In this document: in pieces, positions 3,076 through 25,672 of the stretch | How the letters are laid out: each line of letters opens with the position of its first letter | Position numbering within the stretch: the first letter of the stretch is position 1 | IMG/VR virus record: IMGVR_UViG_3300040806_002501 | Coordinates: 1-31,674 of that record | Source: a virus | Reading direction: 5' to 3' (one strand) | DNA: 31,674 nucleotides | Position numbers and translations under genes: made by a program | The notes under the pieces: generated by a model | What the model was told of the DNA's origin: nothing | The model's database searches: none | Seen by the model: the letters and a program-made list of their open reading frames with translations, nothing else

Positions 3076-4593
3076 ATGGCTCTTGCATCTGGAAACACGA
3101 CCAACCTGATCTACTGGCGGGAGCGCGTTCCTGGCGTGCAGCCTGCCGCTCTTGCGACTGCGACGACTGGGCTCGGCTGGGCTGAGGGCGACGACGCCAA
3201 CAGCTTCAAGGTGACCCGGGCCTCTGGCGACTTCACTACGGACGGCTTCGTCGAGGGGCAGATCGTGCGTCTCGCGGGCTTCACGACGACTGGCGGCACT
3301 TCGCCGGTCTCGCCGACCACGGGTGCGTACCGCATCCGCTCGGTCGCCGCGACCACTGTGGTCATCGAAGACACGGCCAGTGCCACCGCTCTGAACGGGG
3401 GCACCTCGGGCAGTGCCGGCACGATGCAGATCCAGGCGATGACCCTGCGCTCGACGTCGATGAACGTCAACCTCGAGCGCAACCTCTTGGAGTCCGGGGA
3501 GATCAGCTCCTCGGGTATGCAGAAGGACGTCCGCCACGGCTTCAACCAGATCACGGGCTCGCTGGGCTTCGAGCTTTCCCGTGGTGCCTTCGACGACTGG
3601 ATGGAGGCGGCACTCCGTGGCCGGTTCACCACGATCTACGGGGTCAAGGACGCCAGCGAAACCGTCGACGCGGCGGCTGGCTCTGCGGCCGGCACCTCGA
3701 AGTTCACCCGCAGCGGCGGCAGCTGGCTTGCCAACGGCTTCCGGGTGGGGGACATCGTCAGCGTCGGCGCGCCCTTCGACTCGGACAGCCAGGGGCAGTA
3801 CCGAGTCCTCGCTCTGACCGCCACCGTGATGACCGTCGCGGACTCTGCCGGCTCGGTCGTGCCCGAGTCCAGCATCGACGGCGTCGAGTCCATCAACGTG
3901 GTCGGGCGTCGACTTGACGCCGGAACCACGAAGATCACCTTCGGCATGGAGCGTCAGTTCACCGACATCCAGCAGTATCAACTGTTCGCGGGGGTGTCGG
4001 CTGCGAACTTCCAGATCAGCCTGGATCCCGAGCAGATGGCGACCGCCACGGTGGACGTCATCGGCCTGAGCGGTGGTGAGCTTTCGGGCACCAGCGTCGT
4101 CACTGGCAACGTCCTGGCTGCGCGTGCTGCCGCTTCCAACTCGCCCTTCGCCTGGCAGGACGGTGCCGTGTACGAGGGCAAGGTCAGCAACGCCGTGGTG
4201 ACCGGCGGCAGCGTGACGGTGAACCCGCAGCGCTCGCTCGAGGCCGTTGTGGGCAGCCGCTACTCGCCCGACATCTTCGAGGGCACGATGCAGGTGGAGG
4301 CCCAGATCGACGCCTTCCTGGAGACCGGGGCCAGCCTGTTCGGCAAGTTCTACGACGAGACCGAGAGCTCGCTCTGGATCGAGACCCGCGATCCCCAGGT
4401 CGCCACCGGCTTCATGTCGATCGTCGTTCCGCGCACCAAGTACACCGGTGCGCAGCTCGACCCCCAGCAGGAGGGCCCCATCACCCAGAACCTGCCCTTC
4501 CGCGGGCTGGAGAAGGCGGTGGACCTCGCGGCCGGCGGCACCGGCTACACCTCGATCGTCATCCAGGTGTCGAACAACGCCGACGAGTTCTGA
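3076..4593 (+). CDS. Major tail tube protein with two inserted beta modules
   Basis: The gene encodes 505 residues, much longer than simple tube proteins (about 140-250) but in line with the Phage_tail_tube_2-type family. Core elements include 'NTTNLIYWRERVPG' at the N-terminus, 'STSMNVNLERNLLESGEI' (about 128-145), 'GSLGFELSRGAFDDWMEAAL' (about 157-177) and a C-terminal half repeating this plan from about 290. Two modules interrupt it, at about 34-118 and 191-275. Both follow the pattern G-F-x2-G-x-I-V ... G-x-Y-R-[IV] ... T-x-x-V-x-D. The protein polymerises into the tail tube. The gene has its own 17-base leader after the terminator gene. Confidence 0.85.
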   Translation: MALASGNTTNLIYWRERVPGVQPAALATATTGLGWAEGDDANSFKVTRASGDFTTDGFVEGQIVRLAGFTTTGGTSPVSPTTGAYRIRSVAATTVVIEDTASATALNGGTSGSAGTMQIQAMTLRSTSMNVNLERNLLESGEISSSGMQKDVRHGFNQITGSLGFELSRGAFDDWMEAALRGRFTTIYGVKDASETVDAAAGSAAGTSKFTRSGGSWLANGFRVGDIVSVGAPFDSDSQGQYRVLALTATVMTVADSAGSVVPESSIDGVESINVVGRRLDAGTTKITFGMERQFTDIQQYQLFAGVSAANFQISLDPEQMATATVDVIGLSGGELSGTSVVTGNVLAARAAASNSPFAWQDGAVYEGKVSNAVVTGGSVTVNPQRSLEAVVGSRYSPDIFEGTMQVEAQIDAFLETGASLFGKFYDETESSLWIETRDPQVATGFMSIVVPRTKYTGAQLDPQQEGPITQNLPFRGLEKAVDLAAGGTGYTSIVIQVSNNADEF

Positions 4594-5056: not shown

Positions 5057-5475
5057 CGGACGGGCTGGTGGCGTGGGCTCGCAAGCAGTTCGAGCTCGCC
5101 GCGCCATCAGCCCGCGGCAAGTCCAACCTGGCGGCGCACATCCGCCAGCTGGCCAAGTCGGGCAGGGCACCAGAATGGGCAAAGGAACTCAGCGCGCAGA
5201 CCGTCACAGAACCCCCGGGGCTCTTGCCTCAGTGGGGAATCTACTGCGCTCTGAGTCGCCGTCGCCGCAGTGGGATGAACGGCCCGGAGCCTCTGACGGA
5301 TCTGGACCTGCTGGCCTGGGAGCGAGGCTATTCCGTCTCGCTGGCCGTGTGGGAGCGCGAGCTGCTCTTCGATCTCGACTCAGCCTTCCTGGAGGTGTGG
5401 CATGACCGATCTCGCCAATCTCGAGATCCAAATCCGGGCCAAGGGCGTCGAAGAGGCGCGCCGCGCTCTCGGTGA
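5053..5475 (+). CDS. T-part of tail assembly chaperone, read by -1 frameshift from the G gene
   Basis: This -1 frame relative to the upstream chaperone opens at the slippery site and runs 140 codons to TGA 5473-5475. It would be fused to the 145 G residues. The segment 'PLTDLDLLAWERGYSVSLAV' with following WERELLFDLD (about 76-105 of this part) resembles C-terminal tail chaperone T domains that bind the tape measure. A GTG at 5068 could in principle start it alone, but it has no ribosome site. The last 74 bases overlap the tape measure start and encode a basic, probably disordered tail. Confidence 0.85.
   Translation: MTDGLVAWARKQFELAAPSARGKSNLAAHIRQLAKSGRAPEWAKELSAQTVTEPPGLLPQWGIYCALSRRRRSGMNGPEPLTDLDLLAWERGYSVSLAVWERELLFDLDSAFLEVWHDRSRQSRDPNPGQGRRRGAPRSR
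5062..5113 (+). promoter_or_regulatory. Frameshift-stimulating RNA stem-loop
   Basis: GGGCTGGTGGCG (5062-5073) pairs with CGCCATCAGCCC (5102-5113): 12 base pairs including one G-U. Inside, 5074-5081 pairs with 5091-5098 (8 pairs, two G-U) around a nine-base loop, with three bases bulged at 5099-5101. The spacer from the heptamer is eight bases (5054-5061), within the usual 5-9 range for -1 stimulators. Confidence 0.85.
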
Positions 5476-8400
5476 GCTGGCCAAGGCAGCGGTCGAGGTC
5501 GAATCTGCGGTGGACGAGATGGGCCGCGGCACCCGCGAGGTGGGGCGTGCCACCGGCCAAGCCGAGCGGGCTGCTGATCGCCTGGGCCGCGAGCTCGACA
5601 ATGCGGGCAAGAGCGCGCGAAAGACCGGCCAGGAGTCGAGCCGCGCCGCGGACAAGATCGACGAGCTGGATACTAGCTCGAGGCGCGCCGCTGGGGGGGC
5701 GCGCGAACTGGACGAGTCCGCTGAGCAGCTCGGCCGTACAGCTGGGGGGCTGTCGGGGTCGCTTGGCGGGCTCTCTACCATCCTCGGAGCGCTGGGTGGC
5801 GCGGTGTCCTTCGGGGCACTTGTGGGCACCCTGAACGAGTTCGAGGACGGCCTGGTCGGGGTCTCGAAGACCACCGGCATCAGCGGCGCTGCGCTTGCCG
5901 AGCTCGAGGCCGGCATTGAGGGGCTGGCAACGCAATCGAGCGCGGCCGTGGCGGACCTGTTTGGCATCGCGCAGAGCGCCGGCCAGCTCGGCATCCAGGG
6001 TGGCGAGTCGATCCTGCTGTTCACGGATGCGGTGGCGAAGCTGACGGATGCGGCACCCTCTCTTCGCGGGTCCTCGGAGGAGACTGCTCTCGCCCTGGCG
6101 CGAATCCTGGCGGTCTCCGGCGAGTCGACCGACAACGTGACGGCCCTCGCCTCCACGATCGCACTGCTCGGCGACAGCTTCGCCACGGTGGAGAGCTCTG
6201 TCCTGGCCACCGGCCTCGAGGTCGCCAAGGCCGGCGCAGCGTTCGGGGTTTCGGCTGAGGAGGCCCTTGGCCTGGCGACCGCCTTCGACGTCATCGGCAC
6301 CGAGGCCGAGCTGTCGCGGTCGGCCATTGTGCAGGTGTTCGGCGAGATCACGAAGGCCGTCGCCGAGGGCAGCGAGCGCCTCGAGGGCTTCTCTGCCTCC
6401 GCTGGCCTGTCCTCCGAGGCGTTCGCCGACCTGTTCCGCAGCTCGCCGGTGGAGGCGCTCCAGGCGTTCCTGGGCGGCCTCGGCGAGCTGGGCGACGCCG
6501 GAGCCGAAACGACGCTGGTGCTGGACAGCCTGGGTCTGACCTCGGTGCGCCTCCAGCCGACCCTGCTGACCCTAGCGAAGAACTCGGACATCCTGCGAGA
6601 CGCCCTGGCGGCCGCTGCCGCAGAGTTCGAAAACCCGACGAAGCTGCAACGGGAGTTCGAGGCCGGCTCAGACCGCCTGGGAGCCGCTCTACAGCGTCTC
6701 GCCAATACCGCGAAGGTGGCGGTGGACAACTTCGCGGACGACAGCACGGGGCTTGCTGGGGGCCTTCGCGGGGTCGTGGAGGCGTCCACCGACGCCCTGC
6801 GGGTGCTGGCGGGCCTGGACGACCAGGTGCAGGGCTCACGAGGCGTGGCTGCGGCCACGGCCGGTGCCTTTGCTGGCCTTGGCACTGCCATCGGGATCTA
6901 CGCCGCCGCGGCCGGCACCGCGAAGATCGCGACGATCGCACTCAACTCGACCCTGCTGAGTACGCCGGTGGGGGCCGTCGCGGTGGGGGTTGGCGCTCTG
7001 GTTGGTGCTGTGGTCGCGCTCGACGGTGCCTACAGCGACATCAACGGCAAGAGCGTGTCTTTCATCGACGACCTCAAGGTCATCGGCGGAGAGGCCATGA
7101 ACGCCGCGGAGGCATTCCTTGGCCTGCCCGAGTCGGCCTCCGTGGGGCTCGGCGGCACCTTGGACATCTTGGCGGCGATTTCCGACCGCATCACGGGGCT
7201 CCTGTTGACGCCGTTTGAGGCCATCGGCATCGCCATGGAGCGTTCGGCGGAGCAGTGGCGGCGCTTCGGGGACGTCATTTCCTCGACCCTCGCGGCCATC
7301 CAAAACGGCGACTGGTCACGGGCGTTGGAGTCGCTCAACGAGTTCGGCCGTGGCGGCTTCGAGGCCATGGACCTTGGCGACATCGTGGCCGAGGCGTTCG
7401 ATCGCGGTCAGAGCAGGAAGTTCGCCAGCAGCCTCCTGGGTGGGGTGCGCGAGGAGCTCGACGCGATCGTTGGAGCGGTCAACGTGACCGCGAACCAGAT
7501 CCGCCTGAGCCGCAGTGCGGGCGTGCCCGCGGAGGCTGGAGGGGCAACGGGGACCGCCTCATTGCCGGGGGTTGATTCTGCGCCTGTCGCCGGGCCTGAC
7601 GGGGGGGCCGGCCTTGAGGCGCAGCTGGAGGGCCTGGCGGCCCGCCTGGCGCGCCTTGGCCAGACGGGCCAGGACGCCAGCCGCGGCCTGGGGCCGCTGT
7701 CCACGGCCATTCTGGGCGCGGGGGTAGCGGCAGCCAACGCGGCTGGCCGGATGGCGCTGCTCGCAGCCGAGCAGGATCGGGCTCGCCAAGCCTCGCTGGA
7801 CCTGATCGAAGGCCTGAAGGGTGACGCGGCCGAGCTGGATTTTGCCCTCGAGCAGGTGCTGCGTAGCGGGCCTGAGGCTCGCAAGGCGGCAGTGCTGCGC
7901 GACGTGGCGGCAACGCTGCGCGACGCGGGCGTGGCCGGCGAAGCGGCCGGGCAGGTGCTGGACGACTTCTCGGCGAAACTAGACCGCCTGACCGAGCTCG
8001 AGCGGCTCAACGGACTGGCCCGCGGGTTCGCTGACGCTTTGGGGGATGGCCTGAAGTCGGCCGTGCTCGACATCGAGAACGCCGATGAGGCGCTGCGCAA
8101 TCTGGCGGCACGGCTGGGCGAGGTCGCCCTCGACCGCCTGGTCATCGACCCCTTCGTTCAGGGCACCGGCGACGCTCTGGCTGGCCTGGCCGGTGGCTCT
8201 GTGGGTGAAGCGGCCGCAGACGCGGGCCTGCAATCTGCCAGCGCGCTACTGCAAACGGCGGGCACGGGGCTTCAGGCTGCTGGCAGCACCCACCAGGCCG
8301 CGGCATCGGGGCTTCAGGCCGCGGCCGCGGGTCTCCAAAGCGCCGCCTCGGCTCTCCAGGGTTCAGCCGCCAGCGATCTCGGCGAGGGCATTGTGGAGGG

Positions 8401-8905
8401 TGCCGCTGCTGGAGCTACTGCCAGCGCGCGCGGCAACGCTTTTGTGGGTGGTGGCGTGATGCGCTTTGCCAATGGAGGCGCATTCGGGCAGGGCCTGCGA
8501 GGGCGGTTTGGCGACGTAATCCGGTCTCAGGTCGCTTTCCCCATGGGCATTGCGGGGGAGGCTGGCCCGGAGGCGATCATGCCTGGACGCCTGGCCGGTG
8601 GCCGCTTCTTGGTGGGTGCCGTGCAGAACGGCCAGCGCATGGACCTGCCCTTGGCGCGAGACGCTGGAGGCGAGCTCGTTGTCGATATGGGACGACGCTT
8701 TGCAGCTGGTGCCGCCTTCGGGCCGGGACTGATGAGCCTGCCTGCGCCGGCCGTTGCCGCCTCGTCCTCGGGAGAGGCCGGCAACAGCTACCAGTTCACC
8801 TACAACATCCAAACGCCGGACGCTGACTCGTTCCGTCGCTCGAGGAGCCAGATTGAGGCAGACGCCAGGCAGCGCTACGGCGAAAGCACCCGGAGGCGGG
8901 TCTGA
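5402..8905 (+). CDS. Tape measure protein
   Basis: The gene encodes 1167 residues. The ATG at 5402 follows a GGAGG ribosome site. Residues about 8-105 are a charged coiled coil. About 120-420 is the conserved tape-measure domain with 'TTGISGAALAELEAG' and 'AFGVSAEEALGLATAFDVIG'. About 481-543 holds hydrophobic Ala/Gly/Val helices of the type proposed to enter the membrane during DNA ejection. About 900-1060 resembles the lambda-type C-terminal domain (ALRNLAARLGEVALDRLVID ... FANGGAFGQG ... GEAGPEAIMPGR), interrupted by seven-residue LQ-rich repeats. It sets tail length: at about 0.15 nm per residue the tail would be near 175 nm, a rough scaling inference. Confidence 0.95.
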   Translation: MTDLANLEIQIRAKGVEEARRALGELAKAAVEVESAVDEMGRGTREVGRATGQAERAADRLGRELDNAGKSARKTGQESSRAADKIDELDTSSRRAAGGARELDESAEQLGRTAGGLSGSLGGLSTILGALGGAVSFGALVGTLNEFEDGLVGVSKTTGISGAALAELEAGIEGLATQSSAAVADLFGIAQSAGQLGIQGGESILLFTDAVAKLTDAAPSLRGSSEETALALARILAVSGESTDNVTALASTIALLGDSFATVESSVLATGLEVAKAGAAFGVSAEEALGLATAFDVIGTEAELSRSAIVQVFGEITKAVAEGSERLEGFSASAGLSSEAFADLFRSSPVEALQAFLGGLGELGDAGAETTLVLDSLGLTSVRLQPTLLTLAKNSDILRDALAAAAAEFENPTKLQREFEAGSDRLGAALQRLANTAKVAVDNFADDSTGLAGGLRGVVEASTDALRVLAGLDDQVQGSRGVAAATAGAFAGLGTAIGIYAAAAGTAKIATIALNSTLLSTPVGAVAVGVGALVGAVVALDGAYSDINGKSVSFIDDLKVIGGEAMNAAEAFLGLPESASVGLGGTLDILAAISDRITGLLLTPFEAIGIAMERSAEQWRRFGDVISSTLAAIQNGDWSRALESLNEFGRGGFEAMDLGDIVAEAFDRGQSRKFASSLLGGVREELDAIVGAVNVTANQIRLSRSAGVPAEAGGATGTASLPGVDSAPVAGPDGGAGLEAQLEGLAARLARLGQTGQDASRGLGPLSTAILGAGVAAANAAGRMALLAAEQDRARQASLDLIEGLKGDAAELDFALEQVLRSGPEARKAAVLRDVAATLRDAGVAGEAAGQVLDDFSAKLDRLTELERLNGLARGFADALGDGLKSAVLDIENADEALRNLAARLGEVALDRLVIDPFVQGTGDALAGLAGGSVGEAAADAGLQSASALLQTAGTGLQAAGSTHQAAASGLQAAAAGLQSAASALQGSAASDLGEGIVEGAAAGATASARGNAFVGGGVMRFANGGAFGQGLRGRFGDVIRSQVAFPMGIAGEAGPEAIMPGRLAGGRFLVGAVQNGQRMDLPLARDAGGELVVDMGRRFAAGAAFGPGLMSLPAPAVAASSSGEAGNSYQFTYNIQTPDADSFRRSRSQIEADARQRYGESTRRRV
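8225..8372 (+). repeat. Tandem seven-residue LQxAAxG repeats inside the tape measure
   Basis: Codons about 942-990 of the tape measure encode about six to seven degenerate heptads of the form LQ[TAS]A[GA][TSA][GAS], for example LQAAAAG and LQSAASA. The repeat is clear in protein and weaker in DNA. It lies between the helix EVALDRLVIDPF and the glycine-rich 'FANGGAF' region of the lambda-type C-terminal domain, where lambda-like proteins have a variable Gly/Ala linker. Confidence 0.75.
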
Positions 8906-9906
8906 TGTCCTTTCACGAAGACGCGATTTTTCCGACTCGTCTGTCCACGGGATCGCGGCGCTCGCTCAGGTTCAACACGGCAATCGTGCGGCACGACGGT
9001 GGCGCAGAAACGCGGATCCCGCGCTACACCCAGCCGCTCCTGCGCTTCACGCTCGAGGACAACCTGAGGACGCAGGCAGACGCTTACGACCTGGTCGAGT
9101 TCTTCTGGGCGCGGCAGGGGGCCACCTACGGGTTCCGCTTTCGCGACTGGGGCGACTACGCTACGACGAGCTCGGGGTCCACGGCCCAGGGCGAGTCTGT
9201 CGCGGCTACTGACGCCAAGCTCGTGCGTGTCTCGGACGAGGACACCGGCAGCGTTGGAGACGGGAGCTCGACGCAGTTCCAGCTCGCCAAGCAGTACACC
9301 TCCGGGGCCACGGTGCGGTGGCGGAACATCACCAAGCCCGATGCCAGCACGGTGAAGATCGCGTTGAACGGGGTGGTCCAGTCTTCGGGCTACACCCTCG
9401 ACGACACCACCGGCGTCGTGACCTTCTCTAGCGCGCCCGGGGCCGGTGTGGAGGTCCGGTGGGGGGGCGAGTTCTACGTTCCCTGCCGGTTCTCCGCAGA
9501 GACGGACAACGACGGGCTCGTTTCGAGCGCCGAGGATTTCAACGCCAACACCTTCTCGCAGGTGGTGGTCGAGGAGATTCGCGGCGAGATCGCCATGGCC
9601 GAGGTGCCCAACCCCGGGGGCTCTGCCACGTTCGACCCGATGGCCGCCGACGTGCAGCTCGGGATCGGCACCGGCCGCGCGATCCTGGTCGACCCTGACC
9701 AGGCCGGGCGCTCGTTGCTGCTGCCTGGCACCCAGTACCTGGGCGCGGGCATCGGCCACTTCTACATCAAGAACCTCAGCGCCAGCTACACGGTCGCGCT
9801 CCGGTATGCCGGGGCCTTGGTCCACACGATCGCGACCTTGAGCTACGTGGAGGTGGGCTTGGTCAAGAACACGGCCGGCGTCTACGAGTGGGTGGTGTTC
9901 TCTTGA
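8905..9906 (+). CDS. DUF2460 distal tail protein (GTA gp12-like) with extra C-terminal domain
   Basis: The gene encodes 333 residues, starting inside the tape measure stop (TGATG). The N-terminal 230 residues follow the DUF2460 plan: 'FHEDAIFPTRLSTGSRR' start, 'LVEFFWARQGATYGFRFRDW' (about 56-75), 'GDGSSTQFQLAKQY' (about 117-131), 'DDTTGVVTFSSAPGAGVEV' (about 169-187) and 'EFYVPCRFSAETDNDGLVS'. The family forms the distal tail ring of GTAs and related siphophages. Normal members end soon after that, but here about 85 further residues (249-333) form a beta domain that resembles the N-terminus of the following sulfatase. Confidence 0.9.
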   Translation: MSFHEDAIFPTRLSTGSRRSLRFNTAIVRHDGGAETRIPRYTQPLLRFTLEDNLRTQADAYDLVEFFWARQGATYGFRFRDWGDYATTSSGSTAQGESVAATDAKLVRVSDEDTGSVGDGSSTQFQLAKQYTSGATVRWRNITKPDASTVKIALNGVVQSSGYTLDDTTGVVTFSSAPGAGVEVRWGGEFYVPCRFSAETDNDGLVSSAEDFNANTFSQVVVEEIRGEIAMAEVPNPGGSATFDPMAADVQLGIGTGRAILVDPDQAGRSLLLPGTQYLGAGIGHFYIKNLSASYTVALRYAGALVHTIATLSYVEVGLVKNTAGVYEWVVFS

Positions 9907-12266
9907 ACGCGAGGCAGTTCTTCGGCGGCGGCCTGCGACGTGACCTGACCCAGGACGGCACTCTGGTGATTGAAGAGAGTCGCCTTCAGGTGTTCAACGC
10001 GACCGGTGGTGCGACCCGGTCGCTGGTTCTCAAAGATGCCCGGCAGTACCGCACTGGCCCGCGGCTGGTGACTGTCGTCAACGAGGGCGACCAGGCCATT
10101 GCCGTGCGGCGCTCGGACAACACCTTCCTGGGGGGCATCACCTCGGGGCAGGCCGCGACCATCGGTCTGACCGACAACTCGACCGCGGTGGGGGTGTGGA
10201 CGCTGGACGTGCGCACGGTGGACATCAGCGCGCCGTGGAACATTGTCCACATCAACATGGACGACCCTGGTCGGAGCGAGTTCGGCCAGTACCACCCGAC
10301 GTTCGATGGCCGCACCCCGACGGTGCCGCTGAACAGCTGGCCCAGCGCGAACCACCCGTACCCGGTCATGGCGTGGCTGGATGCCAAGGCCCAGGCCGGC
10401 ATCCGGTTCACCCGGGCTCGACAGTTCGCCAGGTGCTCGCCCTCGAGGGCCGCCAACCTGACCGGGCGCTATCCTCACGTGAGCCTGGCCCATCCTCACG
10501 GGACGCAGGTGGGAAACATTCCGCAGCAGGACGGCATCGACGCGGACAACCCGCTGGTGCTGGGCGTGCTGGGTTCCATGAACCCGTGGCCGAAGGTGCT
10601 CCGCGACGCAGGGGGGGATCATGCGACCCTGCACGTCGGCAAGCTGCACGCCTCCAGGCACGAGTACATCGGTGGCCAGGCCGTGGAGACGGACTTCGCC
10701 CAGATCGTGACCGAGGTGGGTTTCGACGAAGCCTACAAGACCGAGCTCGGCTCCCAGGTGACGGGCACCAGCACCCTGGACACGACCGAGCCGTACCGGG
10801 GGTACTTTGCCTTCGACGCCAAGCACGTGGATGGCGACGGCACCGTGACCTCGCTGACGGTGGACCCCCAGCACTACTACCTGACCTGGGAGCTCGAGAA
10901 GATCCAGGAGTGGCTGGACACCAAGCTGTCTGCGGACGAGGGCGCGCCTTTCTTCCTGAACTGGTGGACGAACGCTCCCCACGGGATCATGCCCGCGATC
11001 CACAGCCACATCGGCCCCGTGGACGACTCCACGGCGGTGACCTCGGTCACTAGCCTGGCCGGCGGTGTCGCGGGCGAGAGCATCGTGCAGGTGGCGGCCG
11101 GGCAGGCGGGCATCTGGGCGAGCCAGGGCTACGCAGCTGGCCAGTGGGTCGAGCTCACTGGGTTCAGCTGGTCCGGCACCCGCAAGCGGTTCCTGATCCT
11201 CGAGCTCGCTGGCGACAACCGCAGCATGATCCTGGCCGACGACGACAATGAAATCGTCCAGGACTTGGGAGCCACGGGCGCGGTGAAGCAGCTGAAACCG
11301 GTGCTCCAGTCGATGGACTACCAGGACCAGATTCCCTTCGCGGCCGGCTACACCGGGGAAATCAAGAAGAGCATTGTGCGGTGGGCGGACTACACCGACG
11401 TCGGGCCTGGGTACGACGAGTTCGGTGTGGCGAGCTCGCCCTTCGACCCGGACGCGGTGGGCTACGAGTACGGGCCTGAGGGCGCGGGCAACGTGCTATT
11501 CCGGCGCATGAGGGCCAACCTCGAGGCCTGCGACACCCTGTTTGGGATGCTCGAGGACTGGCTCGAGGCGAACTACCCTCTGGCCGCAGCTCGCACCCTG
11601 TGGATCATCACCTCGGACAACGGGGTGAGTGGCCAAAACATCACCCCGCAGGTCGACCGCAAGTGGGCCGCAGTGGGAGCGCAGTACGCCAACGTGATCC
11701 CGCCCACCTCCGACGGCACCGTCAATGGCGACCTGTATCACTTCCCCGACGACGGCAAGAATGACGTGGCCGACGAAGGGGTCCTGGTGCCGTTGATTAT
11801 CTGGTCTAGCGGTCTGGATGCGGCCGTGCAGGGCACGGATTGCGATCAGCTGATCGACGCCACCGACTTCTACGGCACCTTCCTCGACCTGACGGTGCCC
11901 GGGTGGCGCGACCAGCTCGGTGCAACTGAGGCGGCCAAGGTCGACGGGCAGAGCTTCGCCCCGGCGATCTACAACCTGGAGCACGAGCCGCGGACGCACT
12001 CTCTCCACATGATCTACAAGCCCTCGCCGCAGATCGAGGGCCAGCTGACCCGGATCGAGCGTGCCGTAATCGACCAGGACAACTGGAAGCTGATTCGCAG
12101 CTACGACGAGACCGTAGATCCGGTGGTCGACACCTGGGAGCTATACGACCTCGACAACGACCCTCGAGAGCAGACCAATCTGTACACCTCGAGCGACGTC
12201 ACTGCGGCCTCCAAGCGGGCATCGCTGCTCGCCAAATACGAAGAGCTGGTCGGGAACCGAGACTGA
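9903..12266 (+). CDS. Tail-operon sulfatase (type I, formylglycine-dependent) with phage-type N-terminal domain
   Basis: From TTG 9903, in a TTGA overlap with the DUF2460 stop, the product is 787 residues; GTG 9888 would add five. Residues about 20-106 resemble the end of the preceding tail protein. From about 115 it is a sulfatase of the alkaline phosphatase superfamily. Metal ligands are D120-D121 (INMDDPGR) and D572-N573 (SDNG). The CSPSR signature is C178 to R182, followed by AANLTGR, with C178 the residue oxidised to formylglycine. K247 and H249 (GKLH), H360 (NAPHG) and K619 complete the active-site set, and ELYDLDNDP lies near 745. An inserted module at about 372-466 resembles the tail tube modules. 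Family enzymes cleave sulfate esters. No signal peptide is visible, as expected for a virion protein. The target glycan cannot be told, and no maturation enzyme (FGE) gene is in the window. Confidence 0.92.
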   Translation: MNARQFFGGGLRRDLTQDGTLVIEESRLQVFNATGGATRSLVLKDARQYRTGPRLVTVVNEGDQAIAVRRSDNTFLGGITSGQAATIGLTDNSTAVGVWTLDVRTVDISAPWNIVHINMDDPGRSEFGQYHPTFDGRTPTVPLNSWPSANHPYPVMAWLDAKAQAGIRFTRARQFARCSPSRAANLTGRYPHVSLAHPHGTQVGNIPQQDGIDADNPLVLGVLGSMNPWPKVLRDAGGDHATLHVGKLHASRHEYIGGQAVETDFAQIVTEVGFDEAYKTELGSQVTGTSTLDTTEPYRGYFAFDAKHVDGDGTVTSLTVDPQHYYLTWELEKIQEWLDTKLSADEGAPFFLNWWTNAPHGIMPAIHSHIGPVDDSTAVTSVTSLAGGVAGESIVQVAAGQAGIWASQGYAAGQWVELTGFSWSGTRKRFLILELAGDNRSMILADDDNEIVQDLGATGAVKQLKPVLQSMDYQDQIPFAAGYTGEIKKSIVRWADYTDVGPGYDEFGVASSPFDPDAVGYEYGPEGAGNVLFRRMRANLEACDTLFGMLEDWLEANYPLAAARTLWIITSDNGVSGQNITPQVDRKWAAVGAQYANVIPPTSDGTVNGDLYHFPDDGKNDVADEGVLVPLIIWSSGLDAAVQGTDCDQLIDATDFYGTFLDLTVPGWRDQLGATEAAKVDGQSFAPAIYNLEHEPRTHSLHMIYKPSPQIEGQLTRIERAVIDQDNWKLIRSYDETVDPVVDTWELYDLDNDPREQTNLYTSSDVTAASKRASLLAKYEELVGNRD

Positions 12267-13192
12267 TGCCGCACCCTCTTACAGCTGCGATGGACGCCCT
12301 GCGCGTGCCGGCCGTCGTCCACCTGGCCGCTTGCTGGAAGGTCACCCGGCAGGACGGTGTCGCGCTGCGCCTGACTGACGCGGACGCGCCCATCGTGCTG
12401 GCCAGCGGCGAGACGTACGAGCCAACGGGCTCGGCCGAGGCATCCGCGCGCCGCAAGGAGGGGGAGCTCGAGTCTCAGAGCGTGGAGATCCTCGGGGTGA
12501 TGTCGAGCGACAAGATCACCGCCGAAGATCTGCGGCGCGGCAAGTACCGCGACGCACTGGTCGAGTACTTCCTCGTGGATCGCCGCTATCCCTGGCAGGG
12601 GCATTTTCACCGCCAGCGCTTTTGGATGAGGGCACCGACTTTTGACTCCGAGAGCTGGTCTGCGGAGCTCGAGGGGTTTGGTGGCCGCCTCGAGCGTGAA
12701 GTCGGGCTCGTGGCCGCGCGCCACTGCCGGCACGAGCTCGGCGACGGCTTTGGCACGCCAAAGCTGGGGTGCACGGTCGACCTGGCGCTGCACACCGTAT
12801 CCAACAAGCCTGTGGTGTGGGTCGATAGCACCCTGAACCGAGTCAAGTTCCGCATCGACTACGACAGCCCGAACAGCGACGGGCATTTTGCCCTGGGCAA
12901 GGTCGTGTGGTTGACCGGGAACAACGCCGGCAGCGTGAGCCGGGTGCGCACCGACTCCAAACAAGACACCGACAAGTGCCAGCTGGAGCTCTTTCTCGAG
13001 GCCGACTACGACATCGAGGTGGGGGATACCTGCGACCTGATTTTGGGTTGCAACAAGCTGGCGGGGGTGGGCACAAACGACACTACCGGCCATTGCAAGA
13101 ATCGGTTCGGCATCAACGGCGGCATCCGTCCCGAGTTTGGAGGGGATCCGTATATTCCGGGCACTGCGAAGATCCTCAGGAGGCCTCTCTGA
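12266..13192 (+). CDS. DUF2163 / BR0599-type tail hub protein (GTA gp13-like)
   Basis: The gene encodes 308 residues, starting in the sulfatase stop (TGATG). The N-terminal DUF2163 part includes 'CWKVTRQDGVALRLTDAD' and 'GSAEASARRKEGELESQSVE'. The C-terminal part ends with the BR0599 pattern: GC-N-K at 261-263, C277, 'RFGINGGIRPEFGGDPYIPG'. Four cysteines (154, 169, 262, 277) are placed as in the family. The analogous lambda gpL binds an iron-sulfur cluster, so cluster binding here is plausible but inferred. The protein forms the hub below the distal tail ring. In GTA-like operons it normally follows the DUF2460 gene directly; here the sulfatase separates them. Confidence 0.88.
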   Translation: MPHPLTAAMDALRVPAVVHLAACWKVTRQDGVALRLTDADAPIVLASGETYEPTGSAEASARRKEGELESQSVEILGVMSSDKITAEDLRRGKYRDALVEYFLVDRRYPWQGHFHRQRFWMRAPTFDSESWSAELEGFGGRLEREVGLVAARHCRHELGDGFGTPKLGCTVDLALHTVSNKPVVWVDSTLNRVKFRIDYDSPNSDGHFALGKVVWLTGNNAGSVSRVRTDSKQDTDKCQLELFLEADYDIEVGDTCDLILGCNKLAGVGTNDTTGHCKNRFGINGGIRPEFGGDPYIPGTAKILRRPL

Positions 13193-13616: not shown

Positions 13617-16301
13617 ATGGCGACTCTGATCCTCACGACCATCGGTGGCACACTGGCAGAGGGGGCACTTGGTGTCTTTTACGGAGCTGTCGGAGGAGCT
13701 CTGGGTTCGTACCTCGACAAGGAGTATCTGTTCCCTGCACCGGACATCGAGCAGCCCCGTGTCGGGGACCTGCGCACCCAGCTGGCCAGCGAGGCCATGC
13801 CGCTGAACTACGCGATCGGACCGGATGTCCGGGTAGCCGGCAAGGTCGTTTACGTCGGGCCCGAGTTCCCTCTGATTGTCGATGACGTCGAGCGCGCGGA
13901 CGTGCTCATTGACCTCTGCCAGGGGCCCGTCGAGGAGGAGGACTTCCTCGTGGACATCTGGGCCAACGGCCAGCGCATCTACCAGTCGAGCCCGAACCTC
14001 CAGTTCGAGACTCCCAGCTACAGCGCGGAGCTCCAGGTCGTCTTTCGGTTCGGCCAGGGGTTCTACTACTACCGGATGTGGCTACGTTTGACGACGTCCG
14101 ACCAGGCCGTCGATCTCACGGCGCTCCAGGAGGGGTACGACGTTGAGGTGTCGGGGCTGGACGATCCCATTGGCAGTGACTTGAAGGCCAATGGCACGTG
14201 GCGCGTCAAGGAGTCGTACACCACGTTCGGGTCGCCTCCCTCGACCACGGTAGTGCTCGAGAACACCCAGACGTCACTGAACTTCTATAGCCTGACCACG
14301 ACCGCACTCACGGTGACCAACTCGCTCGTCGTGTTCCAGCAGCTGCCCGTGTTCAGCGGCAACCTGATCCAAGACGTCCGGCTGTACAGGGGCACAGAGA
14401 CGCAGCTGGCCGATCCGACGATCGAGGCGCAGCGCGGAGCCGGTAACGTTCCAGCCCGCTACGGCCGAGCGGCCGTGATGCTCGTGGGGCTGAACAAGTC
14501 CAAGTTCGGAAACCAGGTCCCGAACTTCGAGGTGCAGTTCCGCGAGCGCGTGTCCATGACCGTCGCTGAGGCCATTGACGAGCTCATGCTGCGTCAGGGC
14601 TTCGAGCGCGGGCTCTGGGACACGAGCGGGGTGTCCGGGTACTTCCGGGGGCTGGTGGCGGAGGAGCCGATTGACTCCAAGGGGCTGCTGCAAATCGTGA
14701 TGCAGGCCTACGGGGTTGTCGCGCAAGAGGTCGATGGGCGCGTCTTCTTTCTGATGCGCGACCAGGTACCGGTCCGCGTCATCCCCAGCGCAGAGCTGGC
14801 GGCTGCCGACGAGTCAGGGCGTCAGCAAGGGCGTCTGGTACGCTTCGAAGACCGAGAATCGCGCGAGCTCCCGACCCGCGTCGAGCTGGTCTACAACGAC
14901 GCGGAGCGCGACCTGGCGCAGGCCAGTGTGCGAGAGACTCACGCGCCGACCGAAGGAGCCAACGAGGGGCGCATCGTCCGTGTGCGCACGCCGCTCAGTT
15001 TGACCGAGGCCGAGGCGGGTGCGATGGCGCGGCAGATCATGCTCGACGCCTACGCTGGACGATACGGCATCTCCACCAGCCTGCCGACGTCTCAGCTCGA
15101 CTTGGCCGAGGGTGATGTCTGGGAATCAAGCCTGGACGGCCAGCCGGTGCGCGCGACGATCAGCCGCGTCGAGCTCGGTGCCAACGGGCTGGTGGCGATT
15201 GCTGGAAAGTCCTACCAGCCGCAGATCGGGCTGGTCGGGGCCGACGAGGTCGACTCAGGCCCGACGGATACGGCCTCCGAAATCCCGTTGTCGCTGTACC
15301 TCGACCTGTTTGCGGTCGATCTGGTCGCCCTCAATGACGCACAGGCCAGCACTGTCGGGGTGGCGTGGACGATTCTCGACAACGGCGGAGAAGGGGCCTA
15401 CGGCGGTGGGGCGCTGTATCAGCAGGTCGACGCCGCGGAGTACGAGCTCGCCCAGGAGCTGCCGCCGCCGCAGTCCCCGGTGGGGTATGGCGTCGTCGTC
15501 TCGTACTCCAATGCCACAGGTGGCCAGGGCCGCTGGTGGGACCTGGAATCCACCTTCACGGTGCGTGGCGTCAACGGCTGGGCTCCGAGCTCGAGCACGC
15601 GCGACGCGGTGATGGGGGGTGCCAACCGAGTTCTGGTGGGCCACGAGGTCGTGGGGTACGTGCAGGCGACCGACAACGGCGACGGCACCTACACCCTGTC
15701 CGAGCTCATGCGCAGCCTCAACGGCTCTCGCACCTTCGATTCGAGCAACCCCACCATCGTGGTGCCTGTGGCGTCGCTCGAGTTCAACGACCAGGTGCCC
15801 TCGAGCGCCATGGGCTCCGTCGTTTCGCACAAGGCGGTAGGCACCGGCTGGTCGCTGGAGCAGGTCGATGCCTGGGGCATGGACTTCGCGGGTCGATCGG
15901 TGCTGCCGGCCTGGGTTCACTCGATTCAGGGGCACCGCGACGCCAGCGACAACATCGAGCTGGCCTGGCGGAGGCAGTCGCGCCGGCCTTGGCCGATTTT
16001 CAGCGGCGCGGCCTCCCTCGACCTCCCTGATCCGGCCGAGCAGTACGAGGTCTCCATCTACAACGCCTTCGGAATCGAGGCGTCCACCTCGCCGCAAATC
16101 GTGACGGCGACGGCCGGAGCTGACGGACGGGTCCGATGGACCTACACCGCGGCCCTGGCTGCCACCGAAACCGGCCTGAACTTCGGCCCGTCGGTGTCGA
16201 AACGCTTCGTGATCCGGCAGGTGGGGGCCTACGGAAACAGCTACTGGGGCAACGAGGTCACGGTTCCGGTCGGGGTGGGGCTGGCCTACTCCGACGCCTG
16301 A
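13617..16301 (+). CDS. Large tail-tip protein with Phage-tail_3 domain (GTA gp15 / host-specificity type)
   Basis: The ATG at 13617 lies two bases after the peptidase stop and gives 894 residues; an in-frame start at 13506 inside the previous gene is rejected. A Gly/Ala-rich helix (about 8-32, TIGGTLAEGALG...) opens the protein, as in many tail-tip baseplate proteins. Residues about 300-540 fit the Phage-tail_3 domain: 'YFRGLVAEEPIDSKGLLQIV', 'VDGRVFFLMRDQ', 'DLAEGDVWESS', 'VRATISRVELGANGLV'. A small inserted beta module lies at about 160-240. The last 300 residues are beta-rich, with fibronectin-like strands (IELAWRRQSRRPW). It should close the tail tip and carry fibres. An untranslated gap of 62 bases follows. 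Confidence 0.85.
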   Translation: MATLILTTIGGTLAEGALGVFYGAVGGALGSYLDKEYLFPAPDIEQPRVGDLRTQLASEAMPLNYAIGPDVRVAGKVVYVGPEFPLIVDDVERADVLIDLCQGPVEEEDFLVDIWANGQRIYQSSPNLQFETPSYSAELQVVFRFGQGFYYYRMWLRLTTSDQAVDLTALQEGYDVEVSGLDDPIGSDLKANGTWRVKESYTTFGSPPSTTVVLENTQTSLNFYSLTTTALTVTNSLVVFQQLPVFSGNLIQDVRLYRGTETQLADPTIEAQRGAGNVPARYGRAAVMLVGLNKSKFGNQVPNFEVQFRERVSMTVAEAIDELMLRQGFERGLWDTSGVSGYFRGLVAEEPIDSKGLLQIVMQAYGVVAQEVDGRVFFLMRDQVPVRVIPSAELAAADESGRQQGRLVRFEDRESRELPTRVELVYNDAERDLAQASVRETHAPTEGANEGRIVRVRTPLSLTEAEAGAMARQIMLDAYAGRYGISTSLPTSQLDLAEGDVWESSLDGQPVRATISRVELGANGLVAIAGKSYQPQIGLVGADEVDSGPTDTASEIPLSLYLDLFAVDLVALNDAQASTVGVAWTILDNGGEGAYGGGALYQQVDAAEYELAQELPPPQSPVGYGVVVSYSNATGGQGRWWDLESTFTVRGVNGWAPSSSTRDAVMGGANRVLVGHEVVGYVQATDNGDGTYTLSELMRSLNGSRTFDSSNPTIVVPVASLEFNDQVPSSAMGSVVSHKAVGTGWSLEQVDAWGMDFAGRSVLPAWVHSIQGHRDASDNIELAWRRQSRRPWPIFSGAASLDLPDPAEQYEVSIYNAFGIEASTSPQIVTATAGADGRVRWTYTAALAATETGLNFGPSVSKRFVIRQVGAYGNSYWGNEVTVPVGVGLAYSDA

Positions 16302-18866: not shown

Positions 18867-19204
18867 TGAAGTACCTCCTGGCGACCCTGACTCTCCTTGC
18901 CTCCTGCGTGGGGCCCGGCAGCTGGACGGCGGAGGACTTCCAACGCGAGGCCGAGCTGGCGGCGATTGACCTGCGCAACGCCTCAGAAATCGTGGCGGAC
19001 GAGACGGCCCAGGTGCTGCTCGTCGACCTCGCCGAGGCGCTCGAGTCGATCGACTCTGGGGAGGGCCTTGACGGTCTGGACCTGGCCATCGACCTCGCCC
19101 AGTCCTTCGCCCGCGAGCACCTCGAGGGCGACGACCGCCAGAACGTACTTGCCGCCCTGCTGGTGGCGGAGAGCGCCTACAACCGCTGGAGGGCGTACCA
19201 GTGA
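18866..19204 (+). CDS. Small lipoprotein, possible outer spanin-like protein
   Basis: From ATG 18866 (TGATG overlap) the product is 112 residues. MKYLLATLTLLASC is a textbook lipoprotein signal with lipobox LASC and lipidated C14. The rest is acidic and helical (about 22-110), with no enzymatic motif. Placed after a membrane-coiled-coil protein and before a second small membrane protein, it could be an outer-membrane spanin subunit or a superinfection-exclusion lipoprotein. It implies a host that processes lipoproteins, probably Gram-negative. Confidence 0.75.
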   Translation: MKYLLATLTLLASCVGPGSWTAEDFQREAELAAIDLRNASEIVADETAQVLLVDLAEALESIDSGEGLDGLDLAIDLAQSFAREHLEGDDRQNVLAALLVAESAYNRWRAYQ

Positions 19205-19416
19205 ACCCCACGAACCCCTTCCTGAAGACGGAGCTCCCTCTTTCAGTCGCCGCCGGGTGGGCGGCCTGGGAGCTCGCCAGCGTACCCGGTAAACCCACGT
19301 GGCAGCAGGCAACCCTCGGCCTGTCGATCGCCGCACTGGGCATCGCGTACACCCTCGGCCGCAGCTGGGTCAAGCGCGGCTGTGAGGGCACCCAGGACGC
19401 CTGGGAGGACGAGTAA
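19201..19416 (+). CDS. Small two-helix membrane protein, candidate holin
   Basis: The gene encodes 71 residues, with a GTG start in a GTGA overlap with the lipoprotein gene. Hydrophobic segments lie at about 13-28 (PLSVAAGWAAWELASV) and 35-53 (QATLGLSIAALGIAYTLGR), followed by a charged C-terminus (VKRGCEGTQDAWEDE). Size, two helices and a charged tail match class II-like holins. No specific family was recognised. Confidence 0.65.
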   Translation: MNPTNPFLKTELPLSVAAGWAAWELASVPGKPTWQQATLGLSIAALGIAYTLGRSWVKRGCEGTQDAWEDE

Positions 19417-19453
19417 GCCTCCCGGGGCTCCCAGACCCCAACTCCACCCAGCC

Positions 19454-20182
19454 ATGCGCTCCAGTGCATTCTGGCGCGCCGTGACGGCCCTTGTAGCCGT
19501 TGCGGTGCTGCCCTCGTTGCTGGTGGCCCAGAACCCCGTCGCCGGGGGCTCTCTGGCCACGAGCTCGCCGACACCGCGGCCGATCATCCTGACCCACCGT
19601 GAGCTGATCGGGCACGGTATCCCGCGTCAGTTCGAGATCCCGCTGAAGTCCGACCCGGGCCAGGACACGCTCCAGGTTCGGTTGTGGACGAGGCAGTGGT
19701 CGAAGGTCGGGGGCCAGAACCGCAGCGGCCAGGTCCACCCCGGGTTCGACTACACCTTTCCCGAGCCCTCTCACGCTCGAGCGAGCCTGCACCAGCGGTT
19801 CTACGACGAGGACGGGCACACCGCTCTGCCCTACTCCTGGAACGCCCACATCGTCCTCTTCGAGTGGGGTCCGACTCAGCCGGCCAGCCCGTCCGAGTAC
19901 ATCGACCCGGCCGACTGGCCGTGGGCGTGCGAGACGGACCCGACCTGCTACTGGGGCGCGGCCACCTACAACGGCAGCAAGGGCCACCGCGACGAGGATC
20001 GCAGCTACACCATCACCCAGGGCGACCCGTGGTATCAGGCCGCCCAGACGCCGGGCGCGACGGTCTACTACGTCCCGACCCTCGACTGGTACGACGCCCA
20101 AGGTGTCTGGGACGGCTCGCACGCCTGGCCGGTGGCTATCAGCTGGGAGCAGACGACCCTGCTGTGGCTCTGGTGGGAGTGA
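19454..20182 (+). CDS. Secreted protein of unknown function in the lysis position
   Basis: The ATG at 19454 is chosen because it puts a signal peptide at the N-terminus (RSSAFWRAVTALVAVAVLPS then LLVA); in-frame GTG 19382 would add 24 basic residues inside the previous gene. No clear ribosome site is seen. The mature part (about 215 residues) is beta-rich with many Trp and Tyr and one likely disulfide pair in 'WACETDPTCYWG'. It ends in a strongly hydrophobic LLWLWWE. I see no lysozyme, amidase, chitinase or peptidase motif. Its position suggests a lysis or envelope role, but it may equally be a host-modifying cargo gene. Confidence 0.6.
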   Translation: MRSSAFWRAVTALVAVAVLPSLLVAQNPVAGGSLATSSPTPRPIILTHRELIGHGIPRQFEIPLKSDPGQDTLQVRLWTRQWSKVGGQNRSGQVHPGFDYTFPEPSHARASLHQRFYDEDGHTALPYSWNAHIVLFEWGPTQPASPSEYIDPADWPWACETDPTCYWGAATYNGSKGHRDEDRSYTITQGDPWYQAAQTPGATVYYVPTLDWYDAQGVWDGSHAWPVAISWEQTTLLWLWWE

Positions 20183-20183
20183 G

Positions 20184-20468
20184 ATGACCAGCAAGCTGAG
20201 GAAGTACGCCAAGGCTGCTTCCAGCGCGTCGCACGCGCGCGACAGATGCGCCACCTGTCGCGATTATCCCGCAGCGCTGGACAGCATTGAGGCGTTTTGC
20301 GCTGCCCAAGATGCGGGTGATCCCGACTTTCGTGACCTCCCGATCGCCAGCGAGCCGCACCGGCCGTCGTTGCAGACCTTTCTCCGCGAGGAGTTCGACT
20401 ACCAGCTGTGCGAGAACGCCCTTCGCCGGCACGTGACGAGGTGCGTCCGTGGCAAGAAAAAAGGATGA
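20184..20468 (+). CDS. Small Cys-rich helical protein of unknown function
   Basis: The ATG at 20184 follows a GGGAG ribosome site just after the previous stop; the product is 94 residues. CATC at about 22-25 and further Cys at about 39, 76 and 87 could bind zinc. The second half, 'PSLQTFLREEFDYQLCENAL' then RRHVTRC, looks like a helix-turn-helix with a conserved 'ALRRHV' helix. It overlaps the metallophosphoesterase gene by 20 bases, so the two are probably made together. A DNA-binding partner for the next protein is a reasonable guess, no more. Confidence 0.6.
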   Translation: MTSKLRKYAKAASSASHARDRCATCRDYPAALDSIEAFCAAQDAGDPDFRDLPIASEPHRPSLQTFLREEFDYQLCENALRRHVTRCVRGKKKG

Positions 20469-21516
20469 CCTTCGCGAGTTCGCCCTGAGGGCGCAGCTCG
20501 AGGACATCAAGGTCGCGCACGCTCGCGAGCTCCGCGCCATCAAGGCCGAGGCAACCGAGCTGCGCGCCCAAAACAAGGCTCTGCTCGAGCGTGTCGACCA
20601 GCAGGAGGTCGAGCTCGACGCCTACGCACACGCGCTGCGCCCGCGCCGAGCGCCGCGGGCCATCAGGCCAGCCCGGAGGGCCAAGGCGTTCAGCGAATCG
20701 ACACTGGTCGTCGTGGCCTCCGACTGGCACGTCGACGAGATTGTGGAGCCCTCCACGGTGGCGGGTCTCAACAGCTACAACCCGGACATCGCCCGGGCCA
20801 GGTCTGAGCGCTTCTGGCAGGGCATCCTGAGGGTGCTCGAGATGGCCCGCGCCCACACCACCGTGGACAACCTGGTGGTCGGCCTCATTGGCGACTTCAT
20901 CAGCGGCTACATCCACGAGGAGCTCGTTGCGACCACCGCCATGCCACCGCTCGAGGGCATTGACTTCGCCACCGACCTCGTCCGCCGCGGCCTGACGCTG
21001 CTGGTGGAGCACGGGAAGTGCCAGCGGATCGTTGTCCCGTGCGTCGCCGGCAACCACGGCCGGATGACGCGCCGCCGGTGGTTGGCCCACGAGGCCGGCA
21101 CTAACCTCGAGCACTTCATGTTCCGCCGCCTGGTCGACGACTTCCAGGACGTGCCGGGCGTGGAGATTCTGGTCGGCGAGTCCATCTACCACGACCAGGT
21201 GGAGGTCTACGGTCGCCGCCTGCGGTTCTGCCACGGGGAGACCCTCAAGTACGCCGGCGGGCTTCAGGGTATGTACGGAAGGCTCTACAAGCTGCACCTC
21301 GAGCAGAACCGGATCACCCCGGCGTTCTGGACGATCTGCGGGCACTGGCACCAGCTGCACCTGTTCCAGGGCCTGGGCATTGTGAACGGCAGCCTCATCG
21401 GCACCTCCGCCTACGGCTCGCAGTTCGGCCACGAGCCGCCGAGGCAGGGGTGGGGCCTGATCGAGAAGGACCGTGGCACCACGGCGATGGGGCCGATCTT
21501 CGTGGAGAAGGCCTGA
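20449..21516 (+). CDS. Calcineurin-like metallophosphoesterase with N-terminal coiled coil
   Basis: The gene encodes 355 residues from GTG 20449, inside the previous gene. Residues 1-62 are a coiled coil and 63-80 a basic Arg/Pro/Ala linker. From 85 the five metallophosphoesterase motifs appear in order: D92-x-H94 (SDWH), G148-D149 (GDFISG), N202-H203 (AGNHGR), H262 (CHGE) and GHWH at 298-301. These bind two metal ions for hydrolysis of phosphodiesters or monoesters. Related phage proteins are placed near SbcD/Mre11-like nucleases, but the substrate cannot be told. Its place at the end of the late block, away from the recombination genes, is unusual. Confidence 0.88.
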   Translation: MARKKDDLREFALRAQLEDIKVAHARELRAIKAEATELRAQNKALLERVDQQEVELDAYAHALRPRRAPRAIRPARRAKAFSESTLVVVASDWHVDEIVEPSTVAGLNSYNPDIARARSERFWQGILRVLEMARAHTTVDNLVVGLIGDFISGYIHEELVATTAMPPLEGIDFATDLVRRGLTLLVEHGKCQRIVVPCVAGNHGRMTRRRWLAHEAGTNLEHFMFRRLVDDFQDVPGVEILVGESIYHDQVEVYGRRLRFCHGETLKYAGGLQGMYGRLYKLHLEQNRITPAFWTICGHWHQLHLFQGLGIVNGSLIGTSAYGSQFGHEPPRQGWGLIEKDRGTTAMGPIFVEKA

Positions 21517-21836
21517 TGGTGGAAAGATGGTCGGCGCAGGAGTGGCGCGAGGCCATCGAGTCACTGAAGGCCATTTGCCCGACGCAACACCCGGTCAGCG
21601 TCCGACGAGTCCACCTCCCGCTGATGCACTACGGGGACTGCACCAAGGACGGCCGCCGCTTTCGGATCCGGGTGACCAAGACCGCAGGAATGCACGAGGC
21701 GCTGCTCCTGCTGTGCCATGAGTGGGCCCACGCGATGGTCTGGGATCTCCAGACGCGCCGCGACGCCCACCATGAAGAGCACTGGGGCATCGCCTACGCC
21801 CGGTGCTATCGGGCGGTGTTCCCCATGAACCCCTAG
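21516..21836 (+). CDS. HExxH metalloprotein, SprT-like
   Basis: From ATG 21516, in the previous stop (TGATG), the product is 106 residues. Residues 68-72 read HEWAH within 'LLLLCHEWAHAMVWD', a zincin motif. H85, H86 or H89 in 'HHEEHWGIAYARCY' can supply the third zinc ligand, as in SprT-like domains with a downstream H. An N-terminal pair of helices and two strands match a minimal SprT core. SprT/Spartan proteins cut proteins crosslinked to DNA, but a short phage protein may act otherwise. It is the last rightward gene; its TAG shares CTAG with the converging gene. Confidence 0.75.
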   Translation: MVERWSAQEWREAIESLKAICPTQHPVSVRRVHLPLMHYGDCTKDGRRFRIRVTKTAGMHEALLLLCHEWAHAMVWDLQTRRDAHHEEHWGIAYARCYRAVFPMNP

Positions 21837-22228
21837 TTCTGGTGGGGCGAGTAGCGGGGTAAAGCGCTGTGGAGCTCGCTCTCCACTGCGACCTTTGGCA
21901 GCAGCTTGCCTGCGCATAGCAGCGCGTGGGAACCCGCGCGCGCGAGCGCCTTCAACGCCGTTCCCTGCCCCTCGGCGTTGGCCATGAGCTCGCGGCGCAC
22001 GTTCGCCAGGAATAGGAGCGTCGCCTTCTGCTGGGCCAGCCTCCCGCGTTCCTCGGCAATCTCCAGCGCGGCCTCGAGGATCGGAGCCACCTCGTGCACC
22101 AGGTCGTTGTCGATGAGGATCTCCCCGTTGACCTCGTCGATGAGGCAGGCCACGAGCTGGCCGCCCCAGGGGATTTCCCCCAAGGCGACCTTCCGCAGCA
22201 GCGCCTTCCTCGCCGCAGCCTGGTCCAC
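21833..22228 (-). CDS. Hypothetical helical protein, last gene of the leftward block
   Basis: From GTG 22228, overlapping the upstream gene's stop (TAGTG), the product is 131 residues. It is largely helical: 'PWGGQLVACLIDEVNGEILI' near 20-40, then a long amphipathic helix (about 45-95, EVAPILEAALEIAEERGRLA). No motif or membrane segment is recognised. Its stop codon lies within a CTAG shared with the rightward SprT-like gene. Confidence 0.65.
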   Translation of the reverse strand: MDQAAARKALLRKVALGEIPWGGQLVACLIDEVNGEILIDNDLVHEVAPILEAALEIAEERGRLAQQKATLLFLANVRRELMANAEGQGTALKALARAGSHALLCAGKLLPKVAVESELHSALPRYSPHQN

Positions 22229-22452
22229 TACTTCACCTTCCCGCCTCGCGGAGCGACGCCCTCAAAGCCGTAGCCATCGCGGTTCTCCGCGGGCGGCGGA
22301 ACGAACGGCGACACGCGCTCGAGCTTGGGCGCAGTCGGTGCCGGGGACTCGGGAGCCGTGATGCGGCCCGCGACAAAACCGCTAAGGAAGATCACGGCGA
22401 CGACGGTGACGGCGCACCCGATCTCGAACTTGGGGTCGGCTTGGTAGATCAT
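22228..22452 (-). CDS. Small single-pass membrane protein
   Basis: The gene encodes 74 residues from ATG 22452. A hydrophobic helix spans about 11-29 (IGCAVTVVAVIFLSGFVAGR). The rest is a Pro-rich, positively charged tail (ITAPESPAPTAPK..., ending PRGGKVK). It overlaps the upstream coiled-coil gene by four bases and the downstream gene by one. The function is unknown. Confidence 0.65.
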   Translation of the reverse strand: MIYQADPKFEIGCAVTVVAVIFLSGFVAGRITAPESPAPTAPKLERVSPFVPPPAENRDGYGFEGVAPRGGKVK

Positions 22453-25671: not shown

Positions 25672-25672
25672 G

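Follow-up and report, generated by a model that had tools for sequence, protein, structure and literature searches.

A predicted S1 sulfatase with a tail-type N-terminal domain is encoded between the distal tail protein and baseplate hub genes of a phage tail operon

Introduction

The range of capsules that a phage can pass depends on its tail enzymes, and those known so far either cut the polymer or remove acetyl groups from it. Here we describe a sulfatase gene in a linear DNA fragment of 31,674 bases from an uncultured virus (IMG/VR record IMGVR_UViG_3300040806_002501; hereafter the window), which lies in a tail operon between the genes of a DUF2460 and a DUF2163 protein. Its product shares the Pfam domains, the fold (Z 33-36) and the catalytic set of S1 sulfatases such as ZgCgsA (9hh2, S1_19), BT4656 (5g2v, S1_11) and the Pseudomonas arylsulfatase (1hdh). 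Unlike these cellular enzymes, it is fused to a phage tail domain, lacks a signal peptide, is encoded in a tail operon and belongs to a deep clade of its own, at about 20-30% identity. The surrounding gene order, a DUF2460 distal tail protein followed by a DUF2163 hub, is that of the gene transfer agent (GTA)-like tail module, from which the window differs by an extra C-terminal domain on the DUF2460 protein and an extra protein in the slot between both genes.

Similar to tail depolymerases, lyases and deacetylases, the window protein is a predicted glycan-active enzyme on a tail-type N-terminal domain, the closest fold of which comes from the tailspike depolymerase 24qj. In contrast to β-helix depolymerases that cut the backbone, it would remove sulfate with an alkaline-phosphatase fold and would need a maturation enzyme of the host. 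We propose, with a probability of about 0.68, that it is a virion-borne, formylglycine-dependent S1 sulfatase at the distal tail, which desulfates a host surface glycan at adsorption.

According to the original prediction, made from the DNA alone, no characterised phage of this type was known, and our searches agree with it. The sulfatases of the window and of two further viral loci (L025 and L187, see below) had no tblastn match at 1e-3 in 50,697 phage records; a looser limit added only weak sulfatase matches, in short fragments of human-gut phages and in one Salmonella record, besides an N-terminal domain match to phage ctIqW946. A full-text literature search found no description of a virion sulfatase, an absence that is unproved given the thin coverage of subscription journals. 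The papers on phage and “sulfatase” treat lectins with the formylglycine-generating enzyme (FGE) fold from diversity-generating retroelements, other binding domains of this fold, or host genes (PMC4159848, PMC12724379, PMC5175280, PMC13288928, PMC11318856, PMC7354516).

Catalytic residues and fold of the sulfatase

The gene and its parts are listed below, in positions of the window.

9903..12266, plus strand: predicted tail sulfatase gene, 787 residues; TTG start at 9903, stop codon at 12264-12266; PF00884 and PF16347
9903..10226, plus strand: N-terminal β domain, residues 1-108, a homologue of the C-terminal extension on the neighboring DUF2460 protein and probably a tail-attachment domain
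10227..12263, plus strand: sulfatase catalytic domain, residues 109-787, split by an insertion; from Pfam, AlphaFold and structure matches
10260..10265, plus strand: metal ligands D120-D121
10434..10448, plus strand: formylglycine motif C178-S-P-S-R182
10641..10649, plus strand: active-site K247 and H249
10980..10982, plus strand: active-site H360
11019..11297, plus strand: insertion, residues 373-465, faster evolving, weakly similar to small β domains of the window tail tube protein
11616..11621, plus strand: metal ligands D572-N573
11757..11759, plus strand: active-site K619

The open reading frame (ORF) had been read as a complete sulfatase between two tail genes, and the Pfam families of all three proteins were found. 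The Sulfatase family PF00884 matches with an E-value of 4e-11 (43.2 bits against a curated cut-off of 25) and SGSH_C (PF16347) with 4e-10 (40.4 bits against 29.3). The active-site set named in the original prediction, D120/D121, C178-x-P-S-R182, K247, H249, H360, D572/N573 and K619, is entirely in place. Among 52 aligned sulfatases, there is no variation at D120, P180, R182, H360, D572 and K619, while D121, C178, K247, H249 and N573 are conserved in at least 90%. Moreover, the metal and active-site residues (D, D, K, H, H, D, N and K), together with C178, P180 and R182, are identical in the sulfatases of three other viral loci, L002, L113 and L187.

An AlphaFold run on 52 sequences modeled the sulfatase core with a predicted local distance difference test (pLDDT) score of mostly 80-96; the loops, the insertion and the N-terminal domain were poor in this run because of the few relatives. 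Structural similarity search of the core using Foldseek and VIA-align gave the carrageenan sulfatase ZgCgsA as the best solved match, with a Z-score of 35.6 and a root-mean-square deviation of 3.0 over 397 residues; next came a human 4-sulfatase, a sulfatase of the fucan type and PAS, among others. Carbohydrate sulfatases (carrageenan S1_19, chondroitin/GalNAc and fucan-type) make up most of the best solved matches, which also include PAS. Structure prediction, suggested beforehand as a check, upheld the S1 fold and did not reach the active-site geometry, with D572/N573 and K619 lying beside low-confidence loops. By family, residue set and modeled fold, the protein belongs to the S1 formylglycine sulfatases, and catalysis is predicted. 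The phosphonate monoester hydrolases have the same fold (Z about 32), and cross-activity within this superfamily is known, so that the window protein might instead be such a hydrolase or a phosphoesterase acting on phosphorylated surface polymers. Against this highly improbable alternative, these hydrolases appear at ranks 44 and 49 of the structural matches, the top ones being mostly sulfatases, and the Pfam assignment is Sulfatase plus SGSH_C.

The insertion at residues 373-465 aligns with the tail tube β domains at an hhalign score of 24.2 over 25 columns, compared to a maximum of 17.7 in 200 shuffles, which is only suggestive of a tail-tube-like β domain. By eye, the L113 sulfatase also has an insertion resembling the small β domains of the tail tube, at roughly residues 355-410 and thus at a different place.

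An FGE gene (PF03781) was found in none of the six phage records searched, whereas control genomes gave matches; maturation of C178 would therefore depend on the host.

The only close relative among 2.9 million viral contigs is L002 (IMGVR_UViG_3300017989_002442), which is 83% identical and has the same neighbor genes. Between the two, the ratio of nonsynonymous to synonymous substitution rates (dN/dS) is 0.20 for the whole sulfatase gene (779 codons), so the ORF is under purifying selection and is neither a chance frame nor a frame artefact. The ratio is 0.13 in the N-terminal domain plus the first catalytic half and 0.34 in the insertion; for the flanking DUF2460 and DUF2163 genes it is 0.13 and 0.34, respectively.

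The N-terminal domain and its counterpart in the DUF2460 protein

The N-terminal domain (N-domain) has a counterpart at the C-terminus of the protein encoded just upstream.

8905..9906, plus strand: DUF2460 distal tail protein with C-terminal extension, 333 residues (DUF2460 E 1e-51)
9601..9903, plus strand: C-terminal extension of the DUF2460 protein, of the same domain family as the sulfatase N-domain

Using tblastn, residues 1-108 were found in phage ctIqW946 (MW202657) with 32% identity (E 8e-5), where the match forms the start of a kelch-like protein sitting between DUF2460 and DUF2163. In phages with an N-domain in the slot, the DUF2460 protein carries a C-terminal extension of about 105 residues. 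A profile of the slot N-domains and one of these extensions align over their full lengths (hhalign 97.8%) with a score of 70.6, while none of 200 column shuffles exceeded 16.2; in a three-sequence version of the comparison, the score was 38.0 and 300 shuffles did not exceed 19.1. In a search of eight N-domains, a hidden Markov model of the DUF2460 extensions alone picked up that of the window at 7e-15. The homology emerged with larger profiles; single-sequence BLAST of the N-domain against DUF2460 gave nothing significant (E 3.9), the N-domain had no significant PHROGs match, and Pfam gave none outside the sulfatase part.

AlphaFold on the N-domain family predicted an all-β fold with a pLDDT of 89.7. 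Its nearest solved folds are the Solidus tailspike depolymerase (24qj, Z 9.6), the Pa223 capsid spike (8.7) and CBA120 TSP4 (8.5), followed by the KP1 baseplate (8.1 and 8.0) and T4 gp9 (7.5); after these phage folds come two non-phage matches (6.3 and 6.0), with others below 4. The matches in BFVD are long phage proteins, several of them annotated as fibre proteins, chaperone-domain proteins or polysaccharide lyases. Judging from profiles and predicted fold, residues 1-108 are probably a domain of the virion-attachment type, and we infer the attachment itself. A candidate N-domain in the sulfatase of locus L017 (27% match to window residues 8-193) was ruled out, as that protein begins with a signal peptide.

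A variable slot between DUF2460 and DUF2163

The slot was surveyed at 80 further viral loci with DUF2460, in addition to three found earlier. DUF2460 and DUF2163 had been assumed to be adjacent as a rule, yet the two genes directly adjoin at about half of the loci (39 of the 79 where both were found); at the rest, the gap is a variable slot. It lacks the N-domain at 32 surveyed loci, and DUF2163 was not detected at four. A slot protein with the N-domain occurs at 8/8 loci with an extended DUF2460, compared to 0/75 loci without the extension. Loci L107 and L108 were left out of the N-domain profile, yet match it (9e-5 and 2e-4).

The part that follows the N-domain varies. The slot protein of L113 (IMGVR_UViG_3300028895_000202) consists of the N-domain and a sulfatase (1,139 residues), the catalytic domain of which is 41% identical to that of the window and keeps all catalytic residues; a partial near-copy of L113 occurs in contig 3300017992. 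The proposed search for other phages with a sulfatase between these two tail genes thus yielded a diverged case, L113, besides L002. At L110 the slot protein is the N-domain alone (119 residues), at L111 and L114 it adds kelch-like repeats, and at L107-L109 possibly lectin-like regions, as judged from sequence only. The slot protein of L112 (L112:5939-8866, roughly 975 residues) has the N-domain plus a large part of no recognised kind, and the longest slot ORF of this locus starts upstream of the DUF2460 stop.

Binding without cleavage is common among tail proteins, and the parts joined to the same N-domain in related phages, kelch in L111, L114 and ctIqW946 and possibly lectin-like in L107-L109, resemble binding modules. 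The sulfatase fold, whether competent or fading, might accordingly serve mainly as a lectin-like receptor-binding protein for sulfated glycans. We consider this unlikely; the catalytic and metal residues, which a pure binder would not need, are identical in four phage sulfatases down to 41% identity.

Where the gap lacks the N-domain, apparent lysis genes for a 116-residue protein of membrane type and a lysozyme-like one of about 220 residues dominate, as read from their sequences. At about 28 loci (e.g. L118, L134, L158, L161 and L186) the lysozyme-like gene lies in the gap, often after the membrane-type protein, and the two apparently form a lysis cassette between two tail genes.

In a Planctomycetota genome, a GTA-type tail module that resembles a prophage (L199, G545:C1:3678000-3697000) has an extended DUF2460 and a slot protein of N-domain plus kelch-like repeats, at most a hint at Planctomycetota as possible hosts. 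A search of 392 Planctomycetota genomes, run without a positive control, gave no close relative of the window sulfatase.

Two kinds of phage sulfatase

A search of viral contigs with the seven-sequence alignment A2 gave 10 loci, and the alignment A4 was used for the genome scan. Besides the slot enzymes, the phage sulfatases include L187, which is 49% identical to that of the window, lacks the N-domain and is encoded near the terminase, as well as the following two groups.

L021:6311-9472, L023:6179-9319 and L025:6335-9502: structural-operon sulfatases of about 1,050 residues; C-x-P-x-R present
L017:3875-6229 and L018:2764-5118, plus strand: signal-peptide sulfatase between tail tube and tape genes, on the strand opposite to these

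The first group belongs to another structural operon, and its N-terminal part of about 215-220 residues is related to a neighbor gene via phrog_5417. In a maximum-likelihood tree of 59 rows, the sulfatases of the window, L002, L113 and L187 form one clade (support 100/100), which adjoins that of L021/L023/L025 (100/99); given the length of both stems (2.5 and 1.8), this sisterhood may be an artefact. L017 and L014, a sulfatase of a gut phage, nest within the cellular enzymes. On sequence grounds, these phage sulfatases are separable into a tail type and a moron type.

The L017/L018 sulfatase, a probable phage moron, is also an S1 sulfatase among phage tail genes. Together with L187, where a relative of the window enzyme is encoded outside the slot, it lends some color to the view that the window gene is a moron or auxiliary metabolic gene that frees sulfate or alters host metabolism and sits in the tail operon by chance. 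However, the L017/L018 copy has a signal peptide, the opposite strand and a place in a cellular clade, whereas the window gene lies on the same strand as its neighbors, has conserved overlaps with them, encodes no signal peptide, is fused to a tail-type domain and falls in a separate clade outside the cellular sulfatases. We rejected the moron reading on strand, signal peptide, fusion and tree; a metabolic gene is very improbable here.

Coupling of the gene to the tail operon

The sulfatase gene is co-oriented with the tail operon, which also encodes the tape measure, tube, connectors and central tail protein.

3076..4593, plus strand: tail tube protein
5402..8905, plus strand: tail tape measure protein
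12266..13192, plus strand: DUF2163/GTA-type baseplate hub protein (E 8e-34 and 3e-11)
13617..16301, plus strand: central tail protein (phrog_4271)

The hub protein scores above the cut-off of NCBIfam TIGR02218, and the DUF2460 protein slightly under that of TIGR02217. The predicted overlaps of 1-4 bases with both neighbors are present and kept in L002: the sulfatase start overlaps the DUF2460 stop by 4 nucleotides (TTGA in the window, GTGA in L002), and its stop overlaps the DUF2163 start by 1 nucleotide (TGATG in both). The lack of a signal peptide was likewise confirmed, with the best 12-residue stretch reaching a mean hydropathy of 0.57, compared to 2.73 in the moron sulfatase of L017. The G+C content (0.66) and third-position G+C (0.88) equal those of the neighbor genes, and the gene therefore shows no sign of recent arrival. 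The window has no tRNA and no DNA-level link to a host. Ten long ORFs were scanned in 19000-31674, for which Pfam gave helix-turn-helix matches and one sub-threshold match, and nothing else.

Discussion

A tail-borne sulfatase acting on host-surface glycans, as put forward in the original prediction, is the best reading of the locus and is supported by the tail-type N-domain, the recurrence in the slot of L113 and the exchange of modules on the same domain, as well as by the L021/L023/L025 group, where a sulfatase is independently fused to a different N-domain of structural type. The N-terminal β domain would anchor the enzyme at the DUF2460 ring or DUF2163 hub, given its homology to the DUF2460 extension and its predicted fold. 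A host FGE or anSME would turn C178 into formylglycine in the cytoplasm of the host before assembly, with no need for export. During adsorption, the catalytic domain would hydrolyse sulfate esters on a surface glycan of the host, such as a sulfated capsule or exopolysaccharide, and so let the tail advance inward or expose its receptor. Presence in the particle, formylglycine formation, the glycan substrate and the role in entry are all what we infer from the computed family and fold, catalytic set, N-domain, coupled position, selection and recurrence.

Several points weigh against this proposal. The slot statistics partly use a profile built from the same loci; the fold shared with phosphonate monoester hydrolases leaves the substrate class unproved; the loops beside D572/N573 and K619 have low pLDDT in the AlphaFold model; and the L187 relative is encoded near the terminase, outside the slot and without the N-domain.

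Alternatively, the tail enzyme might act mainly at release, desulfating debris or glycans of neighboring cells so that progeny do not stick. The same tail anatomy would serve this purpose, and some other viruses are known to carry receptor-destroying enzymes in their virions. The sequence does not separate release from entry; however, known distal-tail glycan enzymes are mostly described as acting at entry, and we regard a main role at release as distinctly unlikely.

Beyond the window, we propose with moderate confidence that virions carry working sulfatases as tail enzymes, which in one group are interchangeable slot modules (sulfatase, kelch, possible lectin or none) on a shared domain, and which have been recruited in at least two tail architectures against sulfated surface polysaccharides. 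If this is true, sulfation of bacterial surface glycans would act as a barrier to phages, and some phages would rely on the formylglycine machinery of their hosts to arm their particles. The slot between the distal tail protein and the hub would then be a place to seek further glycan-active tail modules, and such phages a source of cytoplasmically expressed, export-free sulfatases.

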